This document shows, piece after piece, positions 11,129-58,945 of a stretch of DNA of 64,000 bases (position 1 is the stretch's first letter; every line of letters starts with the position of its first letter). The stretch covers positions 2,108,001 through 2,172,000 of the forward strand of contig JARWIR010000051.1 in assembly GCA_029959085.1 (NCBI GenBank), given 5' to 3'. Origin of the DNA: Nemophila menziesii (taxonomy: Eukaryota; Streptophyta; Magnoliopsida; Boraginales; Hydrophyllaceae). A program made the position numbers and the translations under genes. A model generated the notes under the pieces. It worked only from the letters and a program-made list of their open reading frames with translations, had not been told where the DNA came from and made no database searches.

Positions 11129-11447
11129 GTGGGTATGATTGAATTAAGGTTTAGTGATGTGGGTTTAATGAATTTTTGGGAAAAGATTTTGAAATTCATG
11201 GTTTTGATTCTTGGATTCTAGGTGTTTTGATATGATTTGGGTGCTTGAATCTTCTTTGTAATGATGTAGGGAAGGATTTGGATTTGAATTCATGGTTATT
11301 TGGTTGTGTTTCGATGTTAGGTGAAGGTTTGTTGAAGCTTCAATGGAGTTTGGAGATTTCTGGAGAAGAGAAAGAGGCTTGAGGTTTAGTAAATTTGGAA
11401 TAATGGCTTAATACCTCATTTATACACTTGAATCCCGTTTCTTTCTC

Positions 11448-11830
11448 TCTCCAGCAACGCGGCGCGGACCATGTTTGAGGACCATGGGTGTACCGCGGGG
11501 TACACCGCAACATCTGATACTCGATAATTTTGACCATCTGGATGATACACGTGGTAGGACCCCGTGGTACGCGTTTTGGCTCTGCGGACCAGGGCGCGGT
11601 ACACCGGAGGGTACCCCGCACCTTCTGTAGCTTTCTCCGTCAAAATACCCGTGGCACCTACCCCGTGGCACGCGTTTTTGAGGCGCGGACCATGGCACGG
11701 TATAGGGGGTAGTCCGCGGTCAAATTTTTTCTTGGTTCTGGATCGAACCCGTGGCTCCACCCGTGGTACGGGTTTTGACCCTGCGGTGCATACCTGCGGA
11801 CTAGGGGTAGTCCGCGCAGGTCATTCTTTC
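11448..11830. repeat. GC-rich palindromic repeat array of element B
   Basis: A sharply GC-rich island in AT-rich sequence with about 3.5 direct repeats of roughly 100 bp. Each has a core with gcggacc, ggtac and ccgcg elements (for example gtaccgcggggtac near 11489) and a linker with acccgtgg...cccgtggtacg...gtttt. The linkers match those of element A (17078-17350), but the cores do not. It lies directly downstream of the coding region in the sense direction. Apparent ORFs across it on both strands (11340-11896) are by-products of its low stop-codon content. Confidence 0.8.
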
Positions 11831-17077: not shown

Positions 17078-17350
17078 AGCGGTGTCGGGCGGTATACCGG
17101 CCGTAGGGCCTGGTATACCGGAGCTACTGTTCTTCCAGAGTCAAGCTGCGTCAAAAAACCCGTGGTGCGAACCCGTGGGCTCGGGTTTTTGTTTTGGCCG
17201 GCATACCAGAGGTATGGCCCGGTATACCGGAGCTATCCTCCTTCGAAATTTTGACTTTCTGCCTTGAACACGTGGAGACACCCGTGGGCTCGAGTTTTCT
17301 GACCTGCGGTATACCGCCGGTGAGGGCCGGTATACCGGTGGTGTGATAAG
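17078..17350. repeat. GC-rich palindromic repeat array of element A
   Basis: About 2.5 direct repeats of roughly 108 bp. The self-complementary core ggtatacc occurs five times (17091, 17112, 17221, 17308 and 17329 regions), usually as ggtataccgg or ccggtataccgg. The linkers contain acccgtgg...acccgtgggctcgggtttt, matching element B although the cores differ. It sits directly downstream of the coding region, in otherwise AT-rich DNA. Confidence 0.85.
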
Positions 17351-26442: not shown

Positions 26443-28012
26443 TGGTGGTCCTTTGTGTGTTCTAAAATAAATGTAAAAGTAATCGAACCACAACCGCAGG
26501 TGTACGGTTGTCCCAAGTAGTAATAAGTGATTCTAAGATCGTTCGCAGGGACGGTTTGGTTAACTACAATGCTTATCAAATAATGAATGGTTGCACTTAT
26601 GAAAGCTAGTAAAAGTTTTAATGATTGATTGTTTGTTTGTTTTAATTCCAAATAATGAAATACTATAAAGGAAATGCAATTAAATACTAAGACGCGAGTA
26701 AATGAATGTGAAACGCAAATATGAGAAGGTAGCACTTGAGAACGCAAGGGATCCTCCTAATCCTATTTCATAACCTATGTTGTTTAAGGGTTAAATCGGT
26801 CAATTACAATGGTCGGGATTCTAAATTCCTTATACTCCCGTCAGGGTGGACAATAAGGCTATCCTAGAGTGTCACTAGTCCCGTCAGGTAAATATGATCC
26901 ACTTTTAGACGATTAAGTTAATTACCACTTTGGCCCTAAAATTAGCTAAGTTCGTCAGAATCAATAGCTTCTATTTTAGATTGAATAAATAAATCTGTAC
27001 CTAAACCCTCCGTCAGGATGATCCACACGCCACATATGTGGAATAGCCTAGATACTAATACCTGTTCTTAGTTCATGACTCCAAAAACAGTAAATAATCT
27101 CAATTTATCGAAAAGAGTAAAAGACCCAATTTAATTTAATTTAACAGAAACCCAAATTCAAATATAGAAGTTCAATAGAATTGGGATTTACCCGTAAAGC
27201 ATTCTCAAGCACTAAAATGAAATTAGCTCATACTAATTAAAAAGAAAACTAAATTAAAAATAATGGAATTCATATTGTCTTACAAAATTAAAGATAAAGA
27301 AAACTTAATTTCCGGAATTGGAATGGCTGAGAATTGAGATATAGACCCTCTCCAGCTCTTACAACTTCTTCTTTCTTCCTTCTGTTGCTTCTCTCTGATG
27401 TTTTTAATTTGTAAAAAGTGAATTGTTCTTAAAAATAGAAGTCAAGGGCTCCTTTTATAAGTGGAAAAACGGATTAGGGCTTGGACTTAAGAATAAATCA
27501 CTAATTAAATGTCCAAACCCAATTTCTAAGCCCAAAATCCCGTAACTGCTGCACCACCTTCACTAAAACGGCTCTAGCCGCTTCGTTATAACTCCGATTG
27601 ACCTGAAATCACTTGCTAAAGTTTCGTAACTCGATAAGGAATCTAATCTCTTCAAGGATCAGCGGCTAAATCATCTCTTAAGTGCCTCGAAATCAGCAAT
27701 CTTTGGCCTGTTTTCCAGATTTGCAGCTCTAAAATCAAATTCTTTCGGGATTTATCTTCAAGTCTTGACTCCATATCACGATCTTTGACTCTCTTCTCGG
27801 ATTCCATTCATAGCTAATATTCAAAACCTACAAACTTTTCACTAAAATACACAAGATTACGCGCAAAAGTTTAATAAATCAAAAATATTAGAAATAAAAT
27901 AGGAATTCCGGATTATTGCATTTTTAACTTAAAAGTTTATCAAAATATTCAATTAAACAAAAAAAATGATGTCTCCCAAGAGTCAAAAATAAGAACATTT
28001 GGGGAGACATCA
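26443..28012 (-). repeat. 3' LTR of element C
   Basis: 1570 bp, starting tggtggtcct and ending ggggagacatca. A TATA-like box (cttataaaa, minus strand) lies at about 27453-27461. It pairs with 46822-48391. Confidence 0.95.
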
Positions 28013-28048
28013 AAACCCCCAACTCAAACCTTTGTCGTCCCGACAAAG
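28013..28048 (-). promoter_or_regulatory. Polypurine tract and hairpin of element C
   Basis: GGTTTGAGTTGGGGGTTT on the minus strand abuts the 3' LTR. The perfect stem ctttgtcg (28030-28037) / cgacaaag (28041-28048), with loop tcc, follows on the plus strand. The stem sequence differs from that of A and B, but the position and shape are the same. Confidence 0.75.
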
Positions 28049-29798: not shown

Positions 29799-30814
29799 TT
29801 AACGCGGAACTTTTGCGTCTAAGAACAAAGTAGTGATGGTACAAGGGAATTTGAGATTTTGTTGCGAAGTTGGAATTCTAGCAAATTCCATGATGGTATC
29901 ATAAATCACGCGAGCAACATCCATAGGTTTCTCCTCAACAATACACTTGATAAACAAAAGATGCTCCTTCTTTACTTCCGATATGTGTTTAATTCCGAAG
30001 AAGGTAGGGATTATGAAACGGGACCATACCTTAGCACATGGTAACAAATTACTGCTATACATCTGCCAGGATATCTCTCTCCTTCGGGAATTGGGCCGGC
30101 CCCATCAATAAGAACTTTTCCCCAAAGGGATTCATAATCAAAAGAAGGTTCTTTAAGAGATTCTTGGAAAGGGCATAGTCCAGAAAATTCGGGTAATTTT
30201 AATGATTTACGAATAAGCTCAACGGAGAAAGGAACTACCTTTTTGCGAATCACAACTGCATCTTTGGAGAAGGCCAATCCTTCATAAAAATCTCGCACCA
30301 AGGTAGGAATATACTCAAGCTTCCTTTCTCTCAATTCTTTCCAACCCAATTTGTCACAAGTAATACCATAGTCTTTATAAGCACTAGTCATAATACCCTT
30401 AGGAAGATTCATTTCCTCACCAAACTTCAAAAATTGAATTCTATCACGAACCTGGGTTTCCCACGGAATAAAGACTCTCTTTGGCTTTTGAGCCCATGTT
30501 TTCCTACTCGGAGGTTTTTGTTGTTGCACGGGTTCTTCGGGAACTTCTTGTTCTGTTTCTTCTTCAAACTCTTCCTCCATCTCTTCCTCAACCTCTTCGT
30601 CGCTTTCTTCGTCACTTTCATCAATTAATCAACTCTTTTTTGGATTAGCCTTACTTGGATTTTCCTTTCTCTTCGGAGCAATTGGTATTTGTTTAGTCTT
30701 TTTGGATCGCGAATCCGGAATCTCAATTGCTTGGTCTGGGCTAGCACCAACAGTGTTCCTGTTTCTTGGCAAGGTTCTTCGATAGTTACACATGGAAGCA
30801 GTTCTGTTAGTCAT
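29799..30814 (-). pseudogene. ORF3 of element C (plant transposon-protein domain, downstream of pol)
   Basis: Downstream ORF in the env-like position of Athila elements. It begins at 30814 (MTNRTASM, RRTLPRNRN) and has a basic stretch, then a TGA at 30629-30631. It continues in the same frame with a strongly acidic region (EEEFEEETEQEVPEE) and then a folded domain: RVFIPWETQVRDR, KLGWKELRERKLEYIPTLVR, DFYEGLAF and PFSVELIRKSLKLPEF. Near 30050 the frame shifts to AKVWSRFIIPTFFGI and FIKCIVEEKPMDVARVI. The wording fits the Pfam 'putative plant transposon protein' family (Transposase_32), common in Athila/Tat elements and of unknown function. One nonsense codon and one frameshift make it a pseudogene. 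I see no membrane anchor. Confidence 0.65.
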
Positions 30815-31182
30815 CTCTTTTCACCCCAAACTAAAAACTTCAAATAGTGAAAAGGCTAGAGAAAAGCTTAGAACTTTGATGTTTTGAGGCTTTAAACTTG
30901 AAGAATATGGTGGAATATGAGATGGGTTAAGGTTAATTGAGAGGAATTATGGAAGAATTGGGTTTAATATCAAGGTTAATTGATAGTTACACGTGGAAGC
31001 AGTTCTGTTAGTCATCTCTTTTCACCCCAAACTAAAAACTTCAAATAGTGAAAAAGCTAGAGAAAAGCTTAGAACTTCGATGTTTTGAGGCTTTAAACTT
31101 GAAGAATATGGTGGAATATGAGATGGGTTAAGGTTAATTGAGAGGAATTATGGAAGAATTGGGTTTAATATCAAGGTTAGGA
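30781..31182. repeat. 201-bp tandem duplication in element C
   Basis: Two adjacent copies (30781-30981 and 30982-31182), nearly identical: both run from gatagttacac to atcaaggtta. The unit spans the N-terminal codons of ORF3 and its upstream leader, including one ccccaaact motif. The high identity suggests a recent duplication. Element D has a single copy. Confidence 0.9.
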
Positions 31183-31384: not shown

Positions 31385-31830
31385 AAAACCGCCTCTCGCT
31401 ACAGCGCACCGGCTAGCCGGCGGATTCGCCGGCATGCCGGTCGCGAAGGCGGCGAAAAAATTACTAAATTCGTTTTGTTTTTACCTCAGACGCAAGCTAC
31501 CTTGCGTCATTGCTGACGCAGTGATCAGAGACTTCATCCTCCTTGGCCGGCTAGCCGGTCATCTGACTGGCATGCCGGCGGCATGTCGCTGGCGCACTTC
31601 GAGACGCAGCGTTCTTGCGTCGTTGCTGACGCAATGGTCAGAAACTCGTTCGTCATTGGCCGGCTAGCCGGTCATCTGACCGGCATGCCGACGGTTCCTC
31701 GCTGGCGCAAATCGAGACGCAGCTATGCTGCGTCATTGCTGACGCAGTGGTCAGAGAGTTGGGGTCTCTCAGCTCATTTGGCCGGTATGCCAGCCAGCTC
31801 GCCGGCTAGCCGGTCAAACCTGCTGTGGAC
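31385..31830. repeat. GC-rich palindromic repeat array of element C
   Basis: Four copies of the perfect palindrome ccggctagccgg (31409, 31547, 31660 and 31802), spaced 138, 113 and 142 bp. Nearby are copies of ccggcatgccgg or close variants (31429, 31568, 31680). The linkers carry cgctggcgca...gagacgcag...gctgacgca...ggtcagaga, which match the linkers of the element D array. It lies between the integrase end and ORF3. Open frames across it (31316-31861) are not genes. Confidence 0.9.
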
Positions 31831-32051: not shown

Positions 32052-34765
32052 CTAAGGAGCTTCGAGGAGGTACATGACCTCTCCGGGATGTGGGTCCTTC
32101 GCACGATCGGTATCTTCACCTCCGTGATATATTTTTAAACGATGACCGTTCACCATGAATGTACGGTTTTCAAGTGGATGTTCTATCTCTATAGCTCAAT
32201 GAGGTGTAACTTTGGTCACAATATACGGTCCTGACCACTTTGATCTTAACTTTCCCGGATAATTGCTGAACTTTGAATTATATTTTAATACTCTTTGTCC
32301 CACTACAAAGTTCTTCTCTCGAATTCGATTATCATGCCATCTCTTGGTATTTTCTTTGTAAAGTTTAGCGTTTTCATAAGCATGTAATAGGAATTCATCA
32401 AGCTCATTAAGTTTCATCATTCGATTCTGACCGGCTAAAGTAGGATCTAAGTTTAATTTTGCGATAGCCCAATATGCACCCATTTCAAGCTCAAGAGGTA
32501 AGTGACAAGCCTTACCATATACCATTCGATACGGAGATGCACCAACTGGAGTTTTGAACGCAGTACGTTAGACCCATAATGCATCATCTAATTTCATTTA
32601 CCAATCTTTTCTAGTAGGACCAACGGTTTTCTCTAAAATAGATTTTACCTCACGATTTGAGACTTCGGCTTGACCATTGGCTTGTGGATGATAAGCGCTA
32701 GATACACGATGTCTCACCCCATACTTATCTAAGACTGACTTTAAATACCTATTAACGAAATGAGTACCTCCATCGCTAATAATTACCCTCGGAGTGCCAT
32801 GTCTAGTGAAGATGTGTGATTTGAGAAATTTAATCACTACCCGCGAATCATTGGTGGGTAGGGCAACGGCTTCTACCCAATTAGACACGTAATCAACAGC
32901 TAATAAGATGTAGAGGTTACCATTTGAAGGAACGAACGGACCCATAAAGTCTATACCCCAAACATCGAATATTTCAACTTCTAACACATTATTACGTGGA
33001 ATTTCATCCCTCTTGGATATGTTTCCGGTAAATTGACATCTTTCACAACTTTTAACATACTCATGACAATCTTTCATAATAGAAGGCCAGTAAAAACCAG
33101 ATTGTAATACCTTAGCAGCAGTTCGATCTCCTTTAAAATGTCCACCATAAGGTGAATCATGACACCAAGCTACAATCGCCTCAATTTCTTCCTTGGCTAC
33201 ACATCTTCTCACCATTTGATCAGCACACACCTTGTAGAGGAAAGGATCCTCCCAAAAGAATTGTCTTGCACGGTGAGCTAATCTTTTTCTCTCTTGATAA
33301 GTTGAACCTTCAGGAAAAGAACCACTTACCAGTAAATTAGCAATATCTGCATACCAAGGAGCTTCATAATCACGAACAACAAATAAACTCTCATCAGGGA
33401 ATTCTTCTCTAACTGCTTCAGTACCACTATTCATCTCTGAACCTTCAAGACGCGATAGATGATCTGCAACCTGATTCTCACACCCCTTTCTATCCTTGAT
33501 CTCTAAATCGAACTCTTGAAGCAATAAAACCCATCTGGTTAACCTTGGTTTAGCATCCTTCTTCTCCATAAGATATCTAATCGCTGAATGATCTGTATAA
33601 ACAATAACTTTCGCTCCAAGAAGATAAGAGCGAAATTTATCAAATGAATACACAACTGCTAGCAACTCTTTTTCTGTAACCGTATAATTAACTTGAGCAC
33701 CATTAAAAGTTTTACTAGCATAGTAAATCAAATGAAAAACTTTCTCTTTTCTCTGTCCTAATACAGCTCTCATACATAAATCACTCGCATCACACATAAC
33801 CTCAAACAGTAAACTCCAATCTGGAGGTAACACTATAGGAGCAAAAATGAGTTTTTCTTTGATTGCTTGAAAGGCCGCTAAACAAGCTTCATCAAAAAGG
33901 AATCTGGAATCCTTTTCGAGTAAGTTGCATAACGGTTTAGCAATCTTAGAAAAATCTTTAATAAAACGCCTATAAAAGCCAGCATGGCCTAGAAAACTTC
34001 TTACCCCTTTAACAGAAACAGGAGGGGGAAGAGTTTTAATTACCTCTATCTTTGCTCTATCGACCTCTAATCCAGCACTCGAAACTTTGTGACCCAGAAC
34101 AATACCTTCGTGAACCATGAAATGACACTTCTCCCAGTTTAAAAGCAAATCTGTTTCTTTGCATCTGATTAACACTTTCTCCAAGTTATCTGAACATCTA
34201 TCGAAATCATCACCAAACACGGAGAAATCGTCCATAAACACTTCAAGAAAATTATCGATCATATCCCAGAAGATGGCCATCATGCATCTTTGAAAGGTAG
34301 CAGGTGCATTACACAGCCCAAATGGCATTCTGCGATATGCAAAAGTGCCAAAGGGGCATGTAAATGTAGTTTTATGTTGATCTTCTGGAGCCACGTAAAT
34401 CTGATTATACCTAGAATCGCCATCCAAGAAACAGTAGTATTCTCTTCCGGCTAATTTATCTAACATTTGATCAATGAAGGGCAAAGGGAAGTGATCTTTT
34501 CTGGTGGATTTGTTCAGCTTTCTGTAATCCATGCAAACTCTCCAACCAACTACCGTTCTTGAAGGAATCGCTTCATTTTTATCATTAAGAACTGTTGCCA
34601 TTCCTCCTTTCTTCGGTACACACTGAACTGGGCTCACCCATTCACTACTTGAGATGGGATAAATAATCCCCGCATCTAAAACCTTAATGACTTCCTTCTT
34701 CACTACATCCTTCATAACGGGCATTAATCTTCTTTGACCTTCAACTGAGCGTGCGTTATCATCTT
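32052..34765 (-). pseudogene. pol: RT-RNase H-integrase part of element C pol
   Basis: The 708-residue open frame 34724-32598 continues the C polyprotein after the D insertion. [13 protein letters not shown] at about 61-71, FLDG at 99-102 (catalytic Asp101, followed by the unusual DSRYNQI instead of YSGYNQI), [13 protein letters not shown] at 133-145, and FMDD at 163-166. RNase H: D312, E353, D378 and D421. Integrase: zinc ligands H522, H529, C560 and C563; catalytic D592, D651 and E687. Stops follow at 32598 (after KDW) and about 32570. The GPY/F end lies at 32525-32052 (WSGPYIVTKV), with one further TGA at 32196-32198. All catalytic residues survive, but the integrase C-terminus is broken. 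By family it makes cDNA and integrates it, probably once serving non-autonomous relatives. Confidence 0.95.
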
Positions 34766-36330
34766 TGGTGGTCCTTTTTGTGTTCTAAAATAAATGCAAA
34801 AGATAATCGAACCACGACCGCAAGTGTATGGTTGTCCCAAGTAGTATAACTGATAAATCAGATTCGTTCCAAGGACGGAATGGTTGATCACAATGCTTAC
34901 CTATTAATGATTGATGCACTTATGAAAACAAATAAAGGTAAAATGTTTGTTTGGTTTTGTTATTAGAACTAATGGATGGAAGACTAATATTAAAATGCAA
35001 GTAAAAGCTAAGACGCAAGTAAAATAAGTGAAAACGCAATATGAGATGTAGTACTTGAGAGACGCAAGGGTTTTCCTAACTATCATTCATTTCATACATT
35101 GTTTAAGGGACAAATCGGTAAATTTGTATTGGTCGGGATTCAATAATCTCCTTACCCCCGTCAGGGTGGACTAAGGAGCAACTCTCAAATGCTACAAACC
35201 CCGTCAGGGTGATTATAGTCCACTCTCAAGTGCTTAAATTCAATTTACCCAAAAGGCCATAGGTTTAATTAAGCTCGTCAGAGTCAAATAATTTCTAACC
35301 TACATTCATTAACTAGTTCGGTACCCAAACCCCCCGTCAAGGTGATCCAATCGCCACTAATTGGAATAGCTTAGATACTAAGTCCTATCATTGATTGATC
35401 AGGTCAAAAATAGTAATTAAAGTGCAAATTAAAGAAAAATACAATTTACCCAATTTGATTTAAATAATAATAATCCCAAATCCAAATGTATAAAACGAAA
35501 TCAAATTGGAATTAACCCATTATGCGTTCTCAAGCACTATGTAAAGTTTAGCTCATATTAAATGCAAAAACTAAATTAAAATAAATGGAATTCATATTTT
35601 ATTACAAAATTAAAATTGAAAGAACCTAATTTCCGGAATTGGAATGACTACGAACGGAGCTATAGACCCACTCCAGCTCTTGTAGCTTCTTCTTTCTTCC
35701 TTCTGTTGCTTCTCTCTGGTGTTTAATCTTGTGGAATGTGAATTGTGTGAAAAATAGAAGTCCAGACCTCCTTTTATAAGCATAAATTCGTTTTAGGGCT
35801 TGGACCAGAAAATAGAATATTAATTAAATGTCCAAGCCCATTTTCTAAGCCCAAAATCCCGTAACTGCTGATACACATTCACTAAAACGGCTTTTCCCGA
35901 TGCGTTACAACTCCGATTGACCTCATTCCAGTTGCTAAAGTTCCGTAACTCGATAAGGAATGATTTCTCTTCAAAGGTCAACAGCTGAATCATCGCTTAA
36001 GCACCTCGAAATCAGCAATCTATGGCCTGGAAAGTGGATTTTCAGCTCTAGAATTAATATCTTCGGGATTTGTCTTCAAGTCTTGACTCTAATTCACGAT
36101 CTTTGACTTTCTCCTCGGATTCCTCTCCTAGCTAACATCTAAAACCTGTAAACTTTACACTAAAAATACCAATATTACGCGCAAAAGTTTAATAAATTAA
36201 AAATGCTAGAAATAAAAAGAGAATTCCGGATTATTGCAAATTTAGTCCAAAAATCTATCGAATTAATTAAATAAACACAAAAAATGATGTCTCCCAAGGG
36301 TCTAAAATAAGAACAATTAGGGAGACATCA
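34766..36330 (-). repeat. 3' LTR of element D
   Basis: 1565 bp, beginning tggtggtcct and ending gggagacatca. The U3 end is a perfect 11-bp inverted repeat: tgatgtctccc (36285-36295) and gggagacatca (36320-36330). A TATA-like box lies near 35773-35781 on the minus strand. Confidence 0.95.
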
Positions 36331-36366
36331 AGACCCCCAACTCAAACCTTTGTCGTCCCGACAAAG
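36331..36366 (-). promoter_or_regulatory. Polypurine tract and hairpin of element D
   Basis: GGTTTGAGTTGGGGGTCT on the minus strand abuts the LTR. The perfect stem ctttgtcg (36348-36355) / cgacaaag (36359-36366), with loop tcc, is as in element C. Confidence 0.75.
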
Positions 36367-38544: not shown

Positions 38545-39010
38545 CTGTCACAGATGAAACCGGGTACCCGCATTTGCAAATGCGGGGCCCCAGTTTCGCG
38601 TCGCTGTGTCGACGCGATTTTTTTTTTTTTTTTTTTTTTTACCTCAAAACGCAGCCAAGACGCGGGAGCCAAAACGCGGGGTCAAAGAATTTCCCTTCGA
38701 AACCGGGTTCCCGCATTTGCAAATGCGGGTACCCGCATTTTCGTCGATGGCGCGAGCCAAGACGCACCAAAACGCAACCTCCCAAGACGCCGGGTCAGAG
38801 AATTTGGAAAAGTACAGCTCCGAAACCGGGTACCCGCATTTGCAAATGCGGGGACCCGGTTTGTGTCGATGGCGCGAATCCAAAACGCAGCAAAACGCAG
38901 TGGTGACGCAGCAAAACGCGGGACCCAAGACGCAGGGTCAGAAAGTTGGAATTTTTATCTTTCGAAACTGGGTACCCGCATTTGCAAATGCGGGGACCCG
39001 GTTTTGCCCC
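38545..39010. repeat. GC-rich palindromic repeat array of element D
   Basis: Four copies of a self-complementary core made of gggtaccc, gcatttgcaaatgc and a closing gggtaccc or ggggacccgg (starts near 38557, 38699, 38823 and 38964). The spacings are 142, 124 and 141 bp, close to the 138, 113 and 142 of element C. The linkers carry tcgatggcgcg...agacgca...gggtcagaga, homologous to C. One linker contains a run of 23-24 T at about 38617-38640. Nothing here is a gene despite open frames on both strands. Confidence 0.92.
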
Positions 39011-39237
39011 TGGAACACCACAAATTTTTCTCCTATTTTCGCCCGTTCGACCCCAAACTCATGACCTTTTTATCCCTGAAATCATCAAAAACAACTACCC
39101 TTCCTCATTTCTTAATGATAAACACTAAAATTACGAAAATCAAACTAATCTAAATTGCAAAAATTTAAAAACTCAGCTAATATACAAAGAATTGGCTTTT
39201 CTTTAACGTCGTTAAGCTCGACGTGTTACCTCATTCA

Positions 39238-39684
39238 TTAGTCATTGACATAACCTCCCCAGCAGTGAGTGAGGTTGTCAATATTCGCAACTCGAAATTT
39301 ACATCCCTTTGCTTTTATTCCCACTAGTTTATCTGAGATAACTTTCGCGACCATGAATGGTCCTATCCAAGAACTTTTGGGTTCACGTACCTTTGGATGG
39401 GGGTTCGGTTTCTTCATAGCTACTTCTTCACCTACTTTGAACCCCTTTTTCTTTCTTTCTTTCTCAGGTTCCTTTGGAACTTTCGTGGTACGTGCTTTCT
39501 CTTTCTTCTTTGCATGATTGAGTTGTGGATTTTTGGGATATGGAGGAGCTTTAATTGGTGATTTCTTTCGTAGCTCTTTCTCCTCCACCCCTAAAGTGTC
39601 CACAACATTACTTGGCTCTTTTCTTACCGGTTCCCTTATATCTATACGAAAACATTCTTCCTTGGAATCCGGAAACTTCATAGG
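39238..39684 (-). CDS. GPY/F-like tail of element D polyprotein (after an in-frame TGA)
   Basis: 147 residues from the ATG at 39681, in the same frame as Gag-protease and separated from it by TGA and one codon. The first 20 residues (MKFPDSKEECFRIDI) match element C just after its protease (MKFTYSQEDFFRMDV), where C has CGA instead of TGA. The rest is not found in C: a lysine-rich linker, then FKVGEEVAMKKPNP, SSWIGPFMVAKVISD (GPF at about 107-109) and VGIKAKGCKF...LTHCWGGY. It resembles the C-terminal GPY/F module of gypsy integrase without zinc finger or DDE core. Close relatives occur in B and A. Expression would need stop readthrough or re-initiation. The function is unknown; binding to integrase supplied in trans is my inference. 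Confidence 0.6.
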   Translation of the reverse strand, partial: PMKFPDSKEECFRIDIREPVRKEPSNVVDTLGVEEKELRKKSPIKAPPYPKNPQLNHAKKKEKARTTKVPKEPEKERKKKGFKVGEEVAMKKPNPHPKVREPKSSWIGPFMVAKVISDKLVGIKAKGCKFRVANIDNLTHCWGGYVND

Positions 39685-41916
39685 TCAAAACACATTAAAC
39701 TTCATCTCCTCGTCTTGGATTCTCATAATCATTTCTCCGTTCTCTACATCAATCAAGGTACGCCCCGTGGCTAGGAATGGTCTTCCCAAAATAATGGGGA
39801 CATTCCTATCCGCGTCGTAATCAAGTATAATGAAATCAGCGGGAAAAATTAACGTACCTGCCTTAACGAGAACATCTTCGATTCGGCCATCTGGATGTGC
39901 AAGAGATCGATCCGCCATTTGCAAGACCATAGAAGTGGGTCTTGCTTCAATATTAAGCTTGTCAAAGACTGATTTGGGCATAAGATTTATGCTTGCACCC
40001 AAATCACATAGTGCCTTACCTCTCCATTCATTACCAATAGATATCGGAATTGTGAAGCTCCCAGGATCAACTAACTTTGGAGGTAATTTACCTTGACAAA
40101 TAGCACTACATTCCTCAGGGAGACCAATCATCTTATTATCACAATACGGCCGTTTGTTGGTGAGGGCTCTTTTCAGAAACTTAGCATACTTGGGTACATC
40201 TCGAATAGCTTCTAGCAACGGAATATTTATGCTAAGACCTCTTACCTTGTTAAAGAATTTTTGATACTCAGCCATATCACCCTTCTTTTGAACTCTCGAT
40301 GGAAATGGTGGAGGAGGACGATTAATCATAGTATCATCTTTCTTCTTTAGAATCTCACTTGGCCTCACTATTTCTTCAACCTCACTATCTTTCTCATTCT
40401 CTTTCTCTTTCTCTTTTTCACCCACTTCCTTTTCTTTTCTTGGGACTTCTTTCTCTTTCATAACGGGAAAAGGAGGTGGAGGAAGGTTCTTACCACTTCT
40501 GAGAGTAATAGCCTTACAATCTTCGATTTGGATTGGATTCTCAGTATCGCTAGGGAGTTGCCCTTGTGGACGTTGATTCAGTTGTTTATTAATTTGACTC
40601 AGTTGATTCTGTAACAACTTCATATTTGCTTCGACTGCATTTTGACGTTCCAAAGCTTGTGTCTGAAGAGCAATCAAACTTTCAACTGTTTTCTGAAGGG
40701 TAACTCCTTCTTGTGGGTGGGCAGGTAAGGCTTTCTGATTCATTGTGTCATCGTAATTGTCTTGAGGAGCTTGTCTCTGAACATAATTTCCCTGATTCTG
40801 TCCTTCTTGATAATTATTTTGTGGTCTTGGATTGTAATTGTTACCTTGGGGACGCAGCTGATACGCATATGTAGGATTGGCTGCCCCATTAGGATTTGAG
40901 TATTGAAACCCAGGATGGTTTCTGTTAGGCTGATATCCATTACCACTTGAATTAAAGTTACCTCTGTTGGAGACAAACATCACGGATTCTTGGTTATTTT
41001 GACAATTTTCCCAACTATGATCATTAACACCGCAATACTCACATCCATATACCTCTTGTGCAACCTTTACCTCACCTCTTTTATTCGAAAAACCTTCTTT
41101 CACGGCTAAAGTGAGTTGTTTCAATTGTTGTTCTAATGTGGTTTGAATCTTATTCTCAAGCGTAGCAAATTTCTCTTCCATATTAACATTATTGACTCCT
41201 CCTCTAACTGGTGTTCTTACTGAATTCCACCCAACTTCATTCTTGACTGTTCTTTCTAGGATGATTTTAGCATGAGCCGGTTGAACTTGAAGAAAACCTG
41301 CACCACATAACATATCCAATTTCTCTCTTGAAGTCCCATCAAGGCCTCTATAGAATATTTTTAATTGTTGTTGTTCTGAAAAGCCATGATTGGGGACTCT
41401 ACGTAAGCACATCTGAAATCTTGTCCAACTCCTACCCAAAGTTTCATCATATTCTTGACGGAACTGCGTCAACTCTAATTCAGCATCTAACCTCATGTTA
41501 CTTGGGTAATACCTGTCAAAGAAAGCAATCTCTAATTGATCCCAATTAGTAATTTTCGTTGGATCTTGCGTATCGTGCCATTCACTTGCTCCATCAATAA
41601 CAAAAAATTTAAACACAGCGTAGTACATCTGTTCTTTTGAAACTCCTTGTGTGATGTAAGAATCACATATCTGTTTGAATTTCTGTATCGCTCTAAGAGG
41701 ATCTTCTCCAACTCTACCACGAAAATTTCCAAAGTTTTGGAATTGAGCTAACATACCCGGATCTGGACGAAACTTCGGAACATTTATATCTGGAGCACCT
41801 ACTCCTATAGCAGGGGCACGGAATGGGACTTCTGGTAGGCCATTAGTAAACCAAGGATCTTGATTCATCACGATTTGAGCTTGTCCGTTATTGTTCTGAA
41901 TATTAACGTTCTCCAT
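39685..41916 (-). CDS. gag: Gag-protease of element D (intact frame)
   Basis: 743 codons without interruption. The capsid domain lies at about residues 70-190 (DPLRAIQKFKQICDSYI, WHDTQDPTKITNWDQL, RYYPSNMRL, WTRFQMCLRRVPNHG). The zinc knuckle CEYCGVNDHSWENC is at 292-305, with C292, C295, H300 and C305. An Asn/Gln-rich region and the proline-rich linkers LRSGKNLPPPPF and RPPPPFPSRV follow. The aspartic protease has CDLGASINLMPKSVF (active DLG at 638-640) and IILGRPFLATG near 708-718. The start is the first ATG. An upstream in-frame extension (RRRLFKDLEP, about 44 codons) lost its ATG (now ATT) but is still open. It probably makes virus-like particles and processes itself. It ends at a TGA where element C reads CGA. 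Confidence 0.92.
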   Translation of the reverse strand: MENVNIQNNNGQAQIVMNQDPWFTNGLPEVPFRAPAIGVGAPDINVPKFRPDPGMLAQFQNFGNFRGRVGEDPLRAIQKFKQICDSYITQGVSKEQMYYAVFKFFVIDGASEWHDTQDPTKITNWDQLEIAFFDRYYPSNMRLDAELELTQFRQEYDETLGRSWTRFQMCLRRVPNHGFSEQQQLKIFYRGLDGTSREKLDMLCGAGFLQVQPAHAKIILERTVKNEVGWNSVRTPVRGGVNNVNMEEKFATLENKIQTTLEQQLKQLTLAVKEGFSNKRGEVKVAQEVYGCEYCGVNDHSWENCQNNQESVMFVSNRGNFNSSGNGYQPNRNHPGFQYSNPNGAANPTYAYQLRPQGNNYNPRPQNNYQEGQNQGNYVQRQAPQDNYDDTMNQKALPAHPQEGVTLQKTVESLIALQTQALERQNAVEANMKLLQNQLSQINKQLNQRPQGQLPSDTENPIQIEDCKAITLRSGKNLPPPPFPVMKEKEVPRKEKEVGEKEKEKENEKDSEVEEIVRPSEILKKKDDTMINRPPPPFPSRVQKKGDMAEYQKFFNKVRGLSINIPLLEAIRDVPKYAKFLKRALTNKRPYCDNKMIGLPEECSAICQGKLPPKLVDPGSFTIPISIGNEWRGKALCDLGASINLMPKSVFDKLNIEARPTSMVLQMADRSLAHPDGRIEDVLVKAGTLIFPADFIILDYDADRNVPIILGRPFLATGRTLIDVENGEMIMRIQDEEMKFNVF

Positions 41917-42168
41917 TTGGTGAATTAATTCTTCTACCTCTGAGTATTCTTGTTCTTTCCTTCTCTTGTTAGCAAGTCTGATTAATGATTCTGGATTATT
42001 AAGGATCGGAGGTGTTGGCTCTAGATCCTTAAAGAGTCTCCTTCGAATACACCAAACCTAAAAACCTGAGAAAACTAAACAAGCAAAAAGCGTAAAACTG
42101 ATAAAAACAAAAAATAAAAATAAATGCAACTATCACTAAAGGATAAACACCGTGGTCACACGCTACCG

Positions 42169-42186: not shown

Positions 42187-42192
42187 AAAACT

Positions 42193-43757
42193 TGGTGGTC
42201 CTTTGTGTGTTCTAAAATAAATGCAAAAGATAATCGAACCACAACCGCAAGTGTACGGTTGTCCCAAGTAGTATAACTGATAAATCAGATTCGTTGCAAG
42301 GACGGAATGGTTGATCACAATGCTTACCTATTAATGATTGATGCACTTATGAAAACAAATAAAGGTAAAATGTTTGTTTGGTTTTATTATTAGAACTAAT
42401 GGATGGAAGACTAATATTAAAATGCAAGTAAAAGCTAAGACGCAAGTAAAATAAGTGAAAATGCAATATGAGATGTAGTACTTGAGAGACGCAAGGGTTT
42501 TCCTAACTATCATTCATTTCATACATTGTTTAAGGGACAAATCGGTAAATTTGTATTAGTCGGGATTCAATAATCTCCTTACCCCCGTCAGGGTGGACTA
42601 AGGAGCAACTCTCAAATGCTACAAACCCCGTCAGGGTGATTATAGTCCACTCTCAAGTGCTTAAATTCAATTTACCCAAAAGGCCATAGGTTTAATTAAG
42701 CTCGTCAGAGTCAAATAATTTCTAACCTACATTAATTAACTAGTTCGGTACCTAAACCCCCCGTCAAGGTGATCCAATCGCCACTAATTGGAATAGCTTA
42801 GATACTAAGTCCTATCATTGATTGATCAGGTCAAAAATAGTAATTAAAGTGCAAATTAAAGAAAAATACAATTTACCCAATTTGATTTAAATAATAATAA
42901 TCCCAAATCCAAATGTATAAAACGAAATCAAATTGGGATTAACCCATTATGCGTTCTCAAGCACTATGTAAAGTTTAGCTCATATTAAATGCAAAAACTA
43001 AATTAAAAGAAATGGAATTCATATTTGATTACAAAATTAAAATTGAAAGAACCTAATTTCCGGAATTGGAATGACTACGAACGGAGCTATAGACCCACTC
43101 CAGCTCTTGTAGCTTCTTCTTTCTTCCTTCTGTTGCTTCTCTCTGGTGTTTAATCTTGTGGAATGTGAATTGTGTGAAAAATAGAAGTCCAGACCTCCTT
43201 TTATAAGCATAAATTCGTTTTAGGGCTTGGACCAGAAAATAGAATATTAATTAAATGTCCAAGCCCATTTTCTAAGCCCAAAATCCCGTAACTGCTGATA
43301 CACCTTCACTAAAACGGCTTTTCCCGATGCGTTACAACTCCGATTGACCTCATTCCAGTTGCTAAAGTTCCGTAACTCGATAAGGAATGATTTCTCTTCA
43401 AAGGTCAACAGCTGAATCATCGCTTAAGCACCTCGAAATCAGCAATCTATGGCCTGGAAAGTGGATTTTCAGCTCTAGAATTAATATCTTCGGGATTTGT
43501 CTTCAAGTCTTGACTCTAATTCACGATCTTTGACTTTCTCCTCGGATTCCTCTCCTAGCTAACATCTAAAACCTGTAAACTTTACACTAAAAATACCAAT
43601 ATTACGCGCAAAAGTTTAATAAATTAAAAATGCTAGAAATAAAAAGGGAATTCCGGATTATTGCAAATTTAGTCCAAAAATCTATCGAATTAATTAAATA
43701 AACACCAAAAATGATGTCTCCCAAGGGTCTAAAATAAGAACAATTAGGGAGACATCA
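42193..43757 (-). repeat. 5' LTR of element D
   Basis: 1565 bp, about 99% identical to 34766-36330 by eye. A TATA-like box (cttataaaa, minus strand) at 43199-43207 is the likely promoter of the element RNA. Confidence 0.95.
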
Positions 43758-46555
43758 ATCTTCAAGTATGATTTTGTGTTGACAATAGGAGGGACTAATG
43801 CCTTTGATGTCAGCAATTGTCCAACCTATTGCCTCTTTGTTGGCTCTTAACACACGCAACAGTTTATCTTCTTGAGGACCTGTTAAATTAGCTGAAACAA
43901 TAACAGGTAGAGTTTCATTAGTACCTAAATACGCATACCTCAAGTGTGCTGGTAATGGATTTTCTTCCAATTCCGGAGGAGATTCAATTGAAGGCTTATT
44001 TTTAGGAATAATCTCCCCCGGTTCTCTCACAGGTTCATAGGCAAGACGCCTATACTTTGGATTTTCAGAATTGAGAGCTGCCACTGTTTCGGCAAGCTCT
44101 TCCAGCATCTCAGGTATGTCTAATGTTAAAGCGGCCTGCAAAATATCATCATAATTAAAATAATCAAATACCTCTTGCGATGCCTGCTTAACTACATCCA
44201 TTCGGAAGAAATCTTCTTGAGAATATGTAAATTTCATAGCTCGGAACACATTGAATTTGACCTCCTCGTCTTGTATCCTCATCGTTAATTCTCCATTTTC
44301 TACATCAATCAATGTACGCCCCGTGGCTAGGAATGGTCTTCCCAAAATAATGGGGACATTCCTATCCGCATCGTATTCAAGTATAACGAAATCAACGGGA
44401 AATATAAGTGTACCTGCCTTAACGAGGACATCTTCAATTCGGCCTTCTGGATGTGCAAGAGACTTGTCCGCCATTTGCAAGACCATAGAGGTAGGTCTTG
44501 CTTCTCCAATTTTTAGCTTATTAAAGATTGACTTGGGCATCAAATTGATGCTTGCACCCAAATCGCATAGTGCTTTACCTTTCCATTCTTCTCCAATCGA
44601 TATCGGAATTGTGAAACTCCCAGGATCAACTAACTTTGGAGGCAATTTACTTTGACAAATAGCACTACATTCTTCAGGATGGCCAATCATCTCATTATCA
44701 CAGTATGGCCTTTTATTAGTGAGGGCTCTCTTCAAAAACTTCGTATACTTAGGAATATCTCGAATAGCCTCTAGTAACGGAATATTAATACTAAGGCCCC
44801 TCACTCTATTAAAGAACTTTTGAAATTCGGCCAAATCACCCTTTTTCTGAACTCGAGATGGAAACGGTGGTGGAGGGCGATTACTAACAACATCATCTTT
44901 CTTCTTCGGAATTTCACTTGGCCTCTCTATTTCTTCAACCTCAACATCTTTTTCTTTCTCACTCACTTCCTTTTCTTTTCTTGGAACTTCTTTCTCTTTC
45001 ATAACAGGAAAAGGAGGTGGAGGAAGGTTCTTACCACTTCTAAGAGTAACAGCTTTGCAATCTTCATGTTGTCTCAGATTTTCTGTGTCACTAGGGAGTT
45101 TCCCTTGTGGACGCTGATTAAGCTATTTTGCGAATTGATCCATTTGATTCTGTAATAACTTCATGTTTGCGTCAGACGCTTGTTGACGTTCCATAGCTTG
45201 CGTCTGAAGAGCAATTAAGCTTTCTACGGTTTTCTGAAGGGTAACTACACCTTCTTGTGGATGAGCAGGTAAGGCTTTTTGGTTCATGGTTTCATTGTAC
45301 GCGTCTTGAGGAGCTTGTCTTTGCACGTAATTTCCCTGATTCTGTCCTCCTTGATAATTATTGTGTGGTCTTGGATTGAAGTTGTTACCTTGGGGACGTG
45401 GATGATACACATATGTAGGATTGGCTGCCCCATTAGGATTTGATTATTGATACCCAAGATGGTTTCTGTTAGGCTGATATCCATTACCACTCGAATTAAA
45501 GTTACCTCTGTTGGAGACAAACATCACGGATTCTTGATTATTCTGACAATTCTCCCAACTATGATCATTAACACCACAATATTCACATCCATACACCTCT
45601 TGTGAAACTTTTGCCTCACCTCTTTTGTTCGAAAAACCTTCTTTCACGGCTAAAGTAAGTTGTCTCAATTGTTGTTCTAGTGTGCTTTGAATCTTGGTCT
45701 CTAAGGAGTTGAACTTTTCTTCAATATTGACATTATTGACTCCTCCTCTAACTGGTGTTCTTACGGTATTCCACCCAACTTCATTATCGACTGTCCTATC
45801 CAAAATAATTCTTGCATACGCAGGTTGAACTCGCAAAAACGTACCACCACACAACAAATCTAAATCTTTCCTAGAGCCACCCTCAAGACCATTATAAAAA
45901 TCTTCATCTGTTGTTGTTGAGTAAGATCATGATTCGGGACTCTTCTTAAACAATTCTGAAATCTTGACCAACTTTTACCTAACGCTTCATCATACTCTTG
46001 CTTGAAATGCGTTAACTCAAGTTCAACATCTAACCTCATATTGGACGGATAATATCGGTTAAAAAACGCAGTTTCTAATTCTTCCCAGTTTGTTATCTTC
46101 GTAGGATCTTGTGTATCATGCCATTCACTCGCTCCATCAATAACGAAAAATCGAAACACAGCAAAATACATTTGGTCTTTGGAAACTCCTTGTGTGATGT
46201 AAGAATCACATATCTGTTTGAATTTCTGTACTGCTCGAAGGGGATCTTCTCCAGGTTTACCACGAAAATTTCCAAAATTTTGGAATTGAGCTAACATACC
46301 CGAATCTGGACGAAACCTCGGGGCGTCTATATTTGGAGCACCTACCCCTAAAGCAGGAGCACGGAATGGAACTTCTTCTAGACCATTAACAAACCATGTA
46401 TCTTGATTAATCGCCATTTTAACTTGGAATTGAGGATTTGGAATGCCAGGCAGAGCCAAAGGATTAAGAACTTGTGGCGCTATAGGCTGGCCATTCTCGT
46501 CTAGCTGAGCTTGTCCGTTATTGTTTTGTTGATTCTGAATATTAACACTCTCCAT
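43758..46555 (-). pseudogene. gag: Gag-protease part of element C
   Basis: Starts at 46555 with a capsid domain (DPLRAVQKFKQICDSYI, WHDTQDPTKITNWEEL). A one-base deletion near 45885 shifts the frame after QQQQMKIF. It then carries CEYCGVNDHSWENC (zinc knuckle), a TAA near 45444 (where D has Tyr) and a TAG near 45123. The final open part, 45113-43758, has LRSGKNLPPPPF, the protease CDLGASINLMPKSIF, IILGRPFLATG, and a linker to RT ending HKIILED. Pol resumes beyond element D at 34765. CGA is retained at FNVFRAMKF, showing that the ancestral polyprotein ran through the point where D has TGA. The element cannot make full Gag now. Confidence 0.9.
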
Positions 46556-46821: not shown

Positions 46822-48391
46822 TGGTGGTCCTTTGTGTGTTCTAAAATAAATGCAAAAGTAATCGAACCACAACCGCAAGTGTACGGTTGTCCCAAGTAGT
46901 AATAAGTGATTCTAGGATCGTTCGCAGAGACGGTTTGGTTAACTACAATGCTTATCAAATAATGAATGGTTGCACTTATGAAAGCTAGTAAAAGTTTTAA
47001 TGATTGATTTTTTGTTTGTTTTAATTCCAAAAAATGAAAGACTATAAAGGAAATGCAATTAAATACTAAGACGCAAGTAAATGAATGTGAAACGCAAATA
47101 TGAGAAGTTAGCACTTGAGAACGCAAGGGATCCTCCTAATCCTATTTCATAACCTATGTTGTTTAAGGGTTAAATCGGTCAATTACAATGGTCGGGATTC
47201 TAAATTCCTTATACCCCCGTCAGGGTGGACTATAAGGCTATCCTAGAGAGTCACTAGTCCCGTCAGGGTAAATATGATCCACTTTTAGACGATTAAGTTA
47301 ATTACTACTTTGGCCCTAAAATTAGCTAAGTTCGTCAGAATCAATAGCTTCTATTTTAGATTGAATATATAAATCTGTACCGAAACCCTCCGTCAGGATG
47401 ATCCACACGCCACATATGTGGAATAGCCTAGATACTAATACCTGTTCTTAGTTCATGACTCCAAAAACAGTAAATAATCTCAATTAATCGAAAAGAGTAA
47501 AAGACCCAATTTAATTTAATTTAACAGAAACCCAAATTCAGACATAGAAGTTCAATAGAATTGGGATTCACCCGTAAAGCATTCTCAAGCACTAAAATGA
47601 AATTAGCTCATACTAATTAAAAAGAAAACTAAATTAAAAATAATGGAATTCATATTGTTTTACAAAATTAAAGATAAAGAAAACCTAATTTGCGGAATTG
47701 GAATGGCTGAGAATGGAGATATAGACCCTCTCCAGCTCTTACAGCTTCTTCTTTCTTCCTTCTGTTGCTTCTCTCTGATGTTTTTAATTTGTAAAAAGTG
47801 AATTGTTATTGAAAATAGAAGTCAAGGGCTCCTTTTATAAGTGGAAAAACGGATTAGGGCTTGGAATTAAGAATAAATCACTAATTAAATGTCCAAGCCC
47901 AATTTCTAAGCCCAAAATCCCGTAACTACTGCACCACCTTCACTAAAACGGCTCTAGCCGCTTCGTTATAACTCCGATTGACCTGAAATCACTTGCTAAA
48001 GTTCCGTAACTCGATAAGGAATCTAATCTCTTCAAGGGTCAGCGGCTAAATCATCTCTTAAGTGCCTAGAAATCAGAAATATTTGGCCTGTTTTCCAGAT
48101 TTGTAGCTCTAAAATCAAATTCTTTCGGGATTTATCTTCAAGTCTTGACTCCATATCACGATCTTTGACTCTCTTCTCGGAAACCATTCCTAGCTAATAT
48201 TCAAACCCTACAAACTTTTCACTAAAATACACAAGATTACGCGCAAAAGTTTAATAAATCAAAATACTAGAAATAAAATAGGAATTCCGGATTATTGCAT
48301 TTTTAACTCAAAAGTCTATCAAAATATTCAATTAAACATAAAAAATGATGTCTTCCAAAGGTCGAAAATAAGAACATTTGGGGAGACATCA
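46822..48391 (-). repeat. 5' LTR of element C
   Basis: 1570 bp, about 3% different from 26443-28012 by eye. The TATA-like box is at 47833-47841 on the minus strand. Confidence 0.95.
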
Positions 48392-49025
48392 AGTCCCGTT
48401 CAAGATATTGTATTCACTCAAAAAAGAGTATATATCTAGGTAGATTATATATAATTGTACAAACTCTAGTTTGGACATTCCTTATGTAGAGTAGGAAAGG
48501 GGTTTCCTCGGAAGAGAGAAAATGACTTAAGCGATGTGCAAACACTTGTTATATTGTGTTGTGGGAGAAAAAGAGGTAGCTTCGAAGGGTTTCCTGAAGT
48601 GTTTGTACAGTTTTATGAGATCACCTTGCTAAAGAGTCATGGAAGATATAGTATAGGATCTTGAAAAATCCAAGGTTCAAATAGACCTTAGGTAGTGGAC
48701 TAAGCCTACGGGAGTCAAACCACTTCAAATACTCTGTATCTCATATTGTACATTGATTTTTACTTTCTTGCATGTTATGTGTTTAATATTATGTCTCATC
48801 ATAATTTCTTAGCTAATTTAAAGATCTTACATGTTAGTTGTTTGAGTAATTGTACTTCAATAGTTGGAATTTATCTCATTCTTTCATCGCATGATATGTT
48901 TGATAAATTATCTCATACAATCTATATATCTTACATTATCTCTTAGATATGTCCCTATTGACTTGAGTTAGTTAGTTGGTTTTGTAATAAACCATAGTTC
49001 ACATTCACCCCTACCCCTCTAGGAC
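48392..49025 (+). repeat. SIRE-like copia LTR, right part
   Basis: Resumes the LTR interrupted at 26442 (shared agtcc). It ends around cattcacccctacccctctagg (about 49000-49022), wording typical of the LTR end and start of the internal region in plant copia elements. Beyond this the sequence joins copia copy M3 in the opposite orientation. The exact end is not resolved. Confidence 0.4.
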
Positions 49026-57924: not shown

Positions 57925-58945
57925 TTTATATATTGCTATAACACACAAAAAAAGATTTTCCAAATTCCACAAAACGTGCGAGTGAATTTTTTTTATAAAA
58001 AATTATATTAAATTTAAAAATATTAGAAAAGTTAAAAAGTTCTATTTTTTTACGATGCGAGTTCATATCTATATCAGCAAAGTTTTTTTATTTAGTTTTT
58101 TTTATTTTATTTTGATATTCAGTTTTATGTGTTCCTACAATACACAAAAATATATTTATGTATTCCTGTAACACACAAAATCATAGAATCAATCTAAAAC
58201 ATTTCCTATTTTAACAAAATCATTATTTCTCTTTATTAATTACATATACCCTATTTTTACTCGTTTTTTACTATCTTGATGTATTATCTTTGTGTCCAAC
58301 CTCTTTTGTTATTTGTGTGTTAATCTAATACACAAAACAGTCATTTGTGTATTACAGCAACACACAAAATCATGTAATTTCTTTTAGTCATGCCCTTTTC
58401 AGTTTGTGATTTTGTGTATCACGTGAACATACAAACCGATGGTTTTGTGTAATAATGTAATAGATAGAAAAAAAACCAGTGTCTAATACCTTAGCGTCGG
58501 AGACCCTAAACACTAAAAACCATTAAATTTCAAAACTAAAAATGATAAAACCTCAACCCTAAAAACCATAAAACCTAAAAATCAATAAAACTCTATACCT
58601 AAAAACTCTAAAGCTTAGCCCCAAAACAGTAGCCCTAAACCTAAAAACACTAACCCTAACCCTAAATCTGAAATCTAAAACCCTAAATCTGAAACCCTAA
58701 ACCCCTAAATCCTAAACCCTAAACCTTAAATCAAAATAACAATAACCCTAAAACTGAAAACCCTAGAGCCTAAATCCTAAAAGCAGAAAAAAGACTAATA
58801 CGATGGGGTCTGTTATTATATATTCTGGGAATACAAAAAACTGAGTTTTATGTGTTCCTCAAACAAAATAAATTGCAAAGAATGAGAAAAATTACTAGTA
58901 TGATGGGGTCTATCATTTTGTGTGTTTCAGTGCTACACAAAACTA
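57925..58945. repeat. Dispersed ttgtgt...acacaa inverted-repeat cluster
   Basis: Roughly nine occurrences of tgtgttnnnnnnnacacaaaa-type short palindromes (near 57933, 58127, 58150, 58315, 58350, 58412, 58440, 58850 and 58915) in a 1-kb AT-rich stretch. There is no gene. The origin is unknown. Confidence 0.55.
58500..58770. repeat. Telomere-like (CCCTAAA) degenerate repeats
   Basis: Interspersed ccctaaa, cctaaa and aaaccctaa motifs, best at about 58630-58745. CCCTAAA is the plant telomere unit, but the array is short and irregular. It is an interstitial degenerate tract, not a chromosome end. Confidence 0.7.

Follow-up and report, generated by a model that had tools for sequence, protein, structure and literature searches.

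The GC-rich tandem arrays of four LTR retrotransposons in Nemophila menziesii probably represent DNA-level cis-regulatory modules of Athila-type Ty3/gypsy elements, perhaps with an anti-silencing role; this reading is drawn from sequence features and is held with moderate confidence. The arrays consist of tandem, family-specific units located between pol (or gag-pro) and the 3' LTR. In elements A, C and D, a two-box frame of these units is conserved, whereas its centre and spacer are exchanged between families. The analysis covered one genome (assembly of 1,516,695,462 bases in 361 contigs), four elements within the window, i.e., the whole 64,000-nucleotide stretch of DNA analyzed, and a 200 kb sample of one contig.

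The four LTR elements of the window (A, B, C and D) all have their sense on the minus strand, with B lying inside A and D inside C. Coordinates are summarized in Table 1. LTR-pair identities over aligned bases amounted to 0.948 for A, 0.986 for B, 0.970 for C and 0.990 for D. In C, the Pfam domains RVT_1, RT_RNaseH, Integrase_H2C2 and rve follow each other in Ty3 order within a single frame, and by this domain order C is of the Ty3/gypsy type. The two pieces of the broken ORF downstream of the C array matched Transposase_32 with 62.1 bits (29802-30104) and 23.4 bits (30014-30628), i.e., over and under the cut-off of 45. A 201-bp tandem duplication (97%) was also observed at 30770-31179, immediately downstream (sense) of the C array.

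Table 1. Features of elements A to D within the window.
Feature	Position	Strand	Remarks
A array, three units	17080..17345	-	boxes 21 bp apart, centre TATA; GC 0.58, CpG o/e 1.04
B array	11440..11830	-	dyad cores; two-box units absent at the threshold applied; GC 0.58, CpG o/e 1.06
C array, four units	31400..31815	-	boxes 20 bp apart, centres CATG and CTAG; GC 0.59, CpG o/e 1.20
C 3' LTR	26443..28013	-	0.970 identical to C 5' LTR
C frame-broken ORF downstream of array	29802..30628	-	Transposase_32 match in two pieces
C RT-RNaseH-integrase frame	32598..34724	-	
C 5' LTR	46822..48392	-	
D 3' LTR	34765..36331	-	0.990 identical to D 5' LTR
D array, four units	38545..39010	-	GC 0.53, CpG o/e 1.35, CpG-island-like
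D core 4 (sense order)	38560..38593	-	
D linker c	38594..38702	-	GAGGTAAAAA (also in C linker c), then A run
D core 3 (sense order)	38703..38736	-	
D linker b	38737..38825	-	
D core 2 (sense order)	38826..38859	-	
D linker a	38860..38967	-	
D core 1 (sense order)	38968..39001	-	two CCGG-N4-CCGG boxes 22 bp apart around ATTTGCAAAT
D conserved flank, sense 5' of array	39016..39245	-	0.84 identical to C; 0.75-0.76 to A, B
D open frame with integrase C-terminus-like stretch	39241..39684	-	no Pfam match
D gag-protease open frame	39688..42057	-	Retrotrans_gag; aspartyl protease match below curated cut-off
D 5' LTR	42192..43758	-	primer-binding site adjoins

Applying tblastn (E up to 0.01), the D gag-protease frame was matched by A and B, and no match to the RT-integrase frame or the Transposase_32 ORF of C was obtained for A, B and D. 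The integrase C-terminus-like stretch of D showed a weak match to the C integrase end (16/61 residues, E 2e-4 in a single comparison) and a match to the Athila-like sequence L001 (E 0.003; see below); weak matches to it were also present in B and A. An in-frame stop at 39685-39687 divides the gag-protease frame of D from the integrase-like frame. Non-autonomous plant LTR elements that keep gag are known as the TR-GAG type. A, B and D resemble this type in having a gag or gag-protease match without an RT-INT match, and differ from it in that they also retain the array and, by weak matches, the integrase C-terminus-like stretch. Furthermore, TGGCGCCGCTGCCGGGGA adjoins the LTR in B, C and D, with a variant in A, and the primer-binding site next to the 5' LTR of D is taken by us to be of the tRNA-Asp type. 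A primer-binding site complementary to tRNA-Asp is a feature of the Athila clade; the family label Athila is assumed here for A to D from general clade features.

A GC-rich array occupies the equivalent place in all four elements. The A, B and D arrays begin 227-231 bp past the integrase-like match, and the position of the C array was assigned from the aligned flank. This sense-5' flank shows an identity of 0.84 in the C-D pair, 0.83 in the A-B pair and 0.72-0.76 in the remaining pairs. Within D, GCATTTGCAAATGC starts at 38570, 38713, 38836 and 38978. The four D cores described in the first-pass annotation were thus confirmed, with spacings of 143, 123 and 142 bp instead of the 142, 124 and 141 bp given there. 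In C, the starts of CCGGCTAGCCGG at 31409, 31547, 31660 and 31802 correspond to the spacings of 138, 113 and 142 bp already described. Allowing up to two mismatches, six matches to CCGGCTAGCCGG were counted versus 0.16 expected. The four exact copies of the 14-base D centre all lie inside the D array, and at up to three mismatches its whole-window count is not above chance (reached by 9 of 100 shuffles). Chance palindromes were set aside based on array match counts, CpG islands and the box excess over shuffles.

Each of the 11 units in A, C and D is composed of two CCGG-N4-CCGG boxes (each with at most two mismatches), whose starts are separated by 21 bp in A, 20 bp in C and 22 bp in D; two more rows of the box-pair table are overlapping by-products and were not counted as units. 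This spacing equals two helical turns. The N4 centre is TATA in A, CATG together with CTAG in C, and GTAC plus variants in D, and is palindromic in 17 of the 22 boxes of these elements. The cores of C and D had been regarded as unrelated and 'completely different', which is an overstatement, since the units of both have one two-box frame at fixed spacing. With at most one mismatch, all 20 CCGG-N4-CCGG sites of the window are located within the arrays (A 5, B 1, C 9, D 5), which account for 2.5% of its length, and no such site occurs in the LTRs of A to D; at two mismatches, 36 of 59 window sites are within arrays. Box counts in A, C and D were each higher than in all 500 shuffles, and their numbers of box pairs 19-24 bp apart were reached by 1, 0 and 3 of 500 shuffles, respectively. 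B showed neither box pairs nor a box excess (224 of 500 shuffles reach its count). Moreover, four of the six CpG-island-like stretches in the window are the arrays, and none of the others lies within A to D. Core identity within the element was 0.91 in D, 0.82 in A and 0.74 in C, and the B cores were not uniform as judged by eye. Accordingly, the uniformity of cores within each element postulated previously applies to D, is weaker in A and C and fails in B.

The first C unit (sense; 31782-31813) has its box order reversed, and the last C unit contains a different spacer. The reversed first unit recurred in 12 of 14 C-family loci (L063-L076), the first unit being undetected in the other two. 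D-type arrays likewise repeat the strand pattern of an asymmetric core.

As one idea, the first-pass annotation had suggested that the cores form hairpins in the RNA of the element, which could determine its partners in dimerisation or packaging and thereby act as an 'address'. All four arrays fold better than shuffles (z -10.8 for D, -7.9 for C, -4.5 for A and -2.4 for B; no shuffle of 100-200 was as good), and of the five places in the window where a 110-nt fold falls below -40 kcal/mol, four overlap with arrays. The D cores represent 34-nt hairpins whose spacer is fully dyad, the D core type is common to an RT-bearing locus (L042, see below), and A, B and D retain the array without an RT-INT or Transposase_32 match, as a cis signal for helper use predicts. 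However, palindrome-rich DNA always folds well, and RNA needs no fixed spacing of 20-23 bp. The N4s of the C boxes pair with each other at just 1-2 of 4 positions and the boxes are mostly self-complementary, which DNA dyads suit better; D alone would suit a hairpin, and the C boxes suit DNA. Furthermore, the dimerisation palindrome of Ty3 is placed at the RNA 5' end, likewise that of HIV-1 and Ty1, in the available text of PMC11381356, whereas the arrays are located 3' of pol. Dimerisation at the RNA level is considered less likely than a DNA-level module, and quite unlikely overall.

The linkers between the cores of C and D had been described as homologous. Six of the nine C-D linker pairs were formally alignable above chance (at most 4 of 200 shuffles as good; best z 9.2), and Cb-Dc, Cc-Da and Cc-Db remained at chance level (74, 29 and 18 of 200 shuffles). 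The mark GAGGTAAAAA was recovered in the third linker (sense order) of both elements, as reported. All six within-element pairs of C and D scored at least 44 and all nine between-element pairs at most 43, and mean global identity was 0.73 within C, 0.68 within D and 0.59 between C and D, compared with a shuffled baseline of 0.55. Because the C and D linkers are closer within the element than between elements, they change in concert too, which contradicts their description as fixed. The A and B linkers are 0.67 identical between elements versus 0.65 and 0.68 within; being alike across elements while the cores differ, they represent a better case for the earlier idea. No resemblance above chance was found between A/B and C/D linkers at 4 of 200 shuffles. 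Position-by-position orthology of linkers was rejected, since C and D share a mark in the third linker only and the A and B linkers are equally alike between and within elements. GAGGTAAAAA resembles a splice donor and TTTTTGATGATTTCAGG, found before the arrays, a splice acceptor; these candidate readings were set aside.

In order to avoid selection by core, D and C loci were chosen by their flanks. For the D flank, 2,737 first-look candidates were obtained in the genome, 40 were scored and 12 of the 39 other listed places were used; for the C flank, 14 of 39 other listed places were used (2,264 candidates, 40 scored). D-type cores were present in all 12 D loci and C-type units in all 14 C loci. 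Mean divergence in D was 0.022 for cores versus 0.053 for linkers (column-bootstrap interval of the difference 0.011-0.051), and mean divergence in C was 0.109 versus 0.155 (0.016-0.075); the bootstraps over columns take no account of relatedness, and the C alignment is blurred by indels. In both families, the mean divergence of cores is thus below that of linkers, though unevenly. In D, the linker excess is due to linker a (0.054) and linker b (0.084); once the A run is omitted, linker c shows values (0.020 and 0.007) as low as those of cores. In C, divergence is higher in core 2 (0.146) and core 1 (0.152) than in linker a (0.082), and CpG columns are nearly equal in cores (0.161) and linkers (0.173), the difference residing at other columns. 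The divergence of cores could likewise be reduced by exchange among units.

A 25-mer of D had 963 + 912 = 1,875 exact genome matches, some cores counting on both strands, and its reversed control had no genome match. For 20 loci on contig C1 chosen by this 25-mer, which are part of more listed there, divergence was 0.04-0.056 in cores, 0.076-0.105 in linkers and 0.094-0.124 in flanks, with 0.039 for a 23-base linker piece and 0.189 for the A run. A protein homologue search retrieved five plant proteins; among viral contigs, a DNA scan for the D core gave 0 matches and protein-based scans no relative.

To survey the box beyond the window, 20 stretches of 10 kb (200 kb) spaced evenly along contig C1 were screened. 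With at most one mismatch, 46 boxes were detected in 10 of the 20 stretches, compared with 5, 3 and 8 sites for three control motifs. Twelve of the 13 box pairs 9-60 bp apart fall at 20-23 bp, and one further pair is closer than 9 bp. N4 was palindromic in just 15 of the 46 boxes, GTTC being commonest. Arrays adjoining an Athila-type flank, gag or integrase match were found at L035, L042, L044, L047 (two) and L048; L043, with a weak flank match (69%), had no boxes. At L047 (6620-8117), gag-protease runs directly into a D-like integrase-end stretch adjoined by an array of E-like boxes, without an RT match. An internal promoter with a TATA box was considered for Athila-type arrays and rejected, as TATAWA occurs within 400 bp downstream in just 5 of 10 arrays examined, with A, C, D, L044 and L047a lacking the motif.

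The four cores of an array had been supposed to be replaced together. Two of the 20 D-type loci are mosaics, with two E-type units, a hybrid and two D-type units at L015 and three D-type units, a hybrid and one E-type unit at L027; the hybrid is located at the join of types, and the E-type core consists of CCGGGAACCCGG twice. At L042, the flank is 0.92 identical to D and the cores are of type E or D/E-intermediate. This locus matches the RT-integrase frame and the Transposase_32 ORF (the latter below the Pfam cut-off), and its flank yielded 1,210 candidates, of which the 40 scored are all listed at 100%. An extra double box (CCGGGTTCCCGG twice, 23 bp apart) was observed at 4326-4360, ~2.5 kb from the L042 array. 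Hybrid units and mosaic arrays show that turnover proceeds unit by unit and not in all four units at once. Gradual core drift, which the first-pass annotation had set against its own idea, was therefore found in part, through the L015 and L027 mosaics and the L042 intermediates.

Core and pol are discordant in some comparisons. C and L042 are close in RT-INT (92% across 459 residues and 88% across another 146) and in the 5' flank (0.87), and their cores differ (similarity 0.65). C and L044 are more distant (RT-INT 67% over 713, flank 0.80) and have CTAG/CATG-type boxes in common (0.76), the L044 array being decayed, with one clear unit of three detected. In this handful of elements, the core type can change out of step with phylogeny, by way of hybrid units and mosaic arrays, and the proposed independence of cores from phylogeny holds to that extent. 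Across nine elements (36 pairs; B was left out, having no two-box units), Spearman correlations of flank with core (0.29, p 0.08) and of flank with linker (0.21, p 0.21) were not significant. Pure, hybrid and mosaic arrays may provide a natural series for studying how a cis-regulatory code switches.

These observations also bear on the assumption that the arrays are 3' tandem repeats of OTA-clade elements that are hypervariable and neutral, changing in copy number and sequence by template switching and serving no function. In the available text of PMC7004042 and PMC11963269, arrays of the Tat lineage are common and family-specific, with origin and function unexplained. Like the arrays described here, the 3' repeats of Tat/Ogre/Retand belong to the Ty3/gypsy OTA superclade, are located downstream of pol and are kept in non-autonomous elements. 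Linker turnover in C and D, the mosaics and uneven core conservation are compatible with neutrality. However, the arrays studied here differ from these repeats in their Athila-type hosts, their number of about 3-5 units and a palindromic frame kept across families, and neutrality leaves unexplained why different families use a single box frame at a fixed spacing. It likewise does not account for the CpG richness of the A array (o/e 1.04 at an LTR identity of 0.948), for the lower mean core divergence in two families or for boxes in a copia element. The neutral reading is therefore disfavoured and regarded as rather unlikely.

The copia element in question, L032, was assigned to this type by an RVT_2 match. 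It contains three double boxes 20-21 bp apart (CGG-TACA-CCG or TGCA), of which just one pair passes the strict threshold (one mismatch). The boxes come after the PPT-like AGGGGGAG and AT/TG, with a TATA box 107 bp downstream. A 24-base stretch of L032 had its best match in B (22/24 bases; 0 of 300 shuffles) and its second-best in A (1 and 0 of 300 shuffles on the two strands), and no match in C and D. The octamer letters of AGGGGGAG presumably are those of a Sirevirus-type PPT. An AT/TG junction after the PPT is described for Sireviruses in the available text of PMC2829016.

According to the same text (Bousios et al. 2010, PMC2829016), Sirevirus motifs are palindromic, of the CGG-CCG form and element-specific, and they create CpG islands in LTRs and upstream of env. 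These RM boxes resemble those of A, C and D in the palindromic CGG-CCG form, the element-specific centre and the many copies, B failing the CGG-CCG test; as in the A to D arrays, their clusters are the CpG islands of the element. Furthermore, the Citrus motif AATCCGGCTWRCCGGATT includes CCGGCTAGCCGG of C among its readings (PMC2829016). In contrast, RM boxes are hosted by Ty1/copia elements, whereas C (RVT_1 to rve order) and D (Retrotrans_gag) are Ty3/gypsy, and they always occur in LTRs, whereas the A to D sites with at most one mismatch lie outside them. RM boxes are also located before env; here, an ORF matching Transposase_32 follows the array in C and L042, and A, B and D have no such match. 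The portions of PMC2829016 at hand call the RM motif Sirevirus-specific, report it missing from the classic Ty1/copia set and do not mention box pairs at 20-23 bp combined with long linkers. Among the titles and opening abstract lines listed for open-licence PMC papers, no description of such boxes in Athila-type elements was found. The results extend a motif class described for Ty1/copia Sireviruses to Athila-type Ty3/gypsy elements, similar boxes being present in copia and gypsy elements of one genome, and the spacing of two helical turns points to a protein reader.

Based on these features, each unit is predicted to serve as a docking site whose two dyad boxes face the same side of the helix at a distance of two turns. 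About three to five such units lie in a CpG-rich island that follows pol (or gag-pro) and precedes the 3' part of the element. The boxes would probably be read by a dimeric DNA-binding factor, either host- or element-derived, which may promote transcription or counter silencing, with centre and spacer setting specificity. Types would turn over between families by recombination between arrays, yielding hybrids and mosaics, after which a new type would spread; inside a family, cores would on average be restrained from change. The two-turn spacing, the dyads, CpG richness, lower core divergence and copia boxes beside a TATA box fit a protein-read module, and the palindromic CGG-CCG precedent of Sireviruses counts in its favour. 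Several observations count against it, namely the failure of B in the box test, TATAWA in just half of the ten Athila-type arrays, the low share of palindromic N4 in the sample, the uneven core conservation (D linker c; C cores 2 and 1; CpG columns), the missing boxes of L043, the single strict pair of L032 and two related sequences without an array. The latter, L001 and L002 (NZ_QPKJ02000021.1, NZ_JABGCL010000066.1), encode an Athila-like gag-pol (RT-INT 64% to C) on contigs without an array, so that the array is not universal. Both contigs are filed under bacterial species, two in number, and probably represent plant contamination of both assemblies.

A transposon family outside the retrotransposons, VANDAL21, offers a further comparison. 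Its VANC targets are, like the arrays, short noncoding tandem-repeat motifs that differ between families and diverge together (Hosaka et al. 2017, PMC5735166; Sasaki et al. 2023, PMC10398659), and VANC illustrates that a transposon protein is able to read fast-changing tandem motifs, as reported in the available text of both papers. The VANDAL21 motif YAGTATTAY is not palindromic (PMC5735166), in contrast to the arrays, and binding by a transposon-encoded protein has been demonstrated there, whereas a protein reader of the arrays is putative. Joint divergence of VANDAL21 motifs (PMC5735166) and element-specific palindromic repeats of Sireviruses (PMC2829016), both as given in the accessible text, provide precedents for the core replacement, for which the first-pass annotation knew of none. 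An anti-silencing target of the VANC type is bound by an element-encoded protein, which removes methylation. By analogy, the box centre may be a family address read by a VANC-like cognate DNA-binding protein of the autonomous element with an anti-silencing or activating effect; the non-autonomous D would then be served by L042-type elements and not by C, unit-wise switching would permit escape from silencing or competitors, and the code would be common to Ty3/gypsy and Ty1/copia. This extended proposal is tentative and considered unlikely in its entirety. The double boxes make the question of private addresses per transposon family testable.

Two further roles were weighed against the DNA-level module. 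A promoter or leader function for the downstream Transposase_32 ORF, which is in an env-like position, would agree with the array being 5' of this ORF in C and L042 (the L042 match being below the Pfam cut-off) and with Sirevirus linker motifs preceding env in the available text of PMC2829016. It is very unlikely, as A, B and D have no match to the ORF (tblastn, E up to 0.01) and the LTR identities of B and D (0.986 and 0.990) imply that ORF-less elements moved fairly recently with the array kept, which suggests that the module serves the element itself. The other role, in which the arrays are host-facing hairpins acting chiefly as small-RNA sources that mark the element for silencing, would favour their loss and is regarded as highly improbable. 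Small RNAs are in excess at the palindromic clusters of maize Sireviruses (PMC10760457, reporting Bousios 2016), although the same source, in its available text, suspects that the structure is kept for a cis-regulatory function.

Elsewhere in the window, the sole strongly foldable 110-nt region off the arrays was observed at 62391-62510, representing an imperfect hairpin that is perhaps a small-RNA precursor. Degenerate CCCTAAA-like (telomere-type) repeats were also observed at 58633-58730, in a contig-internal position.
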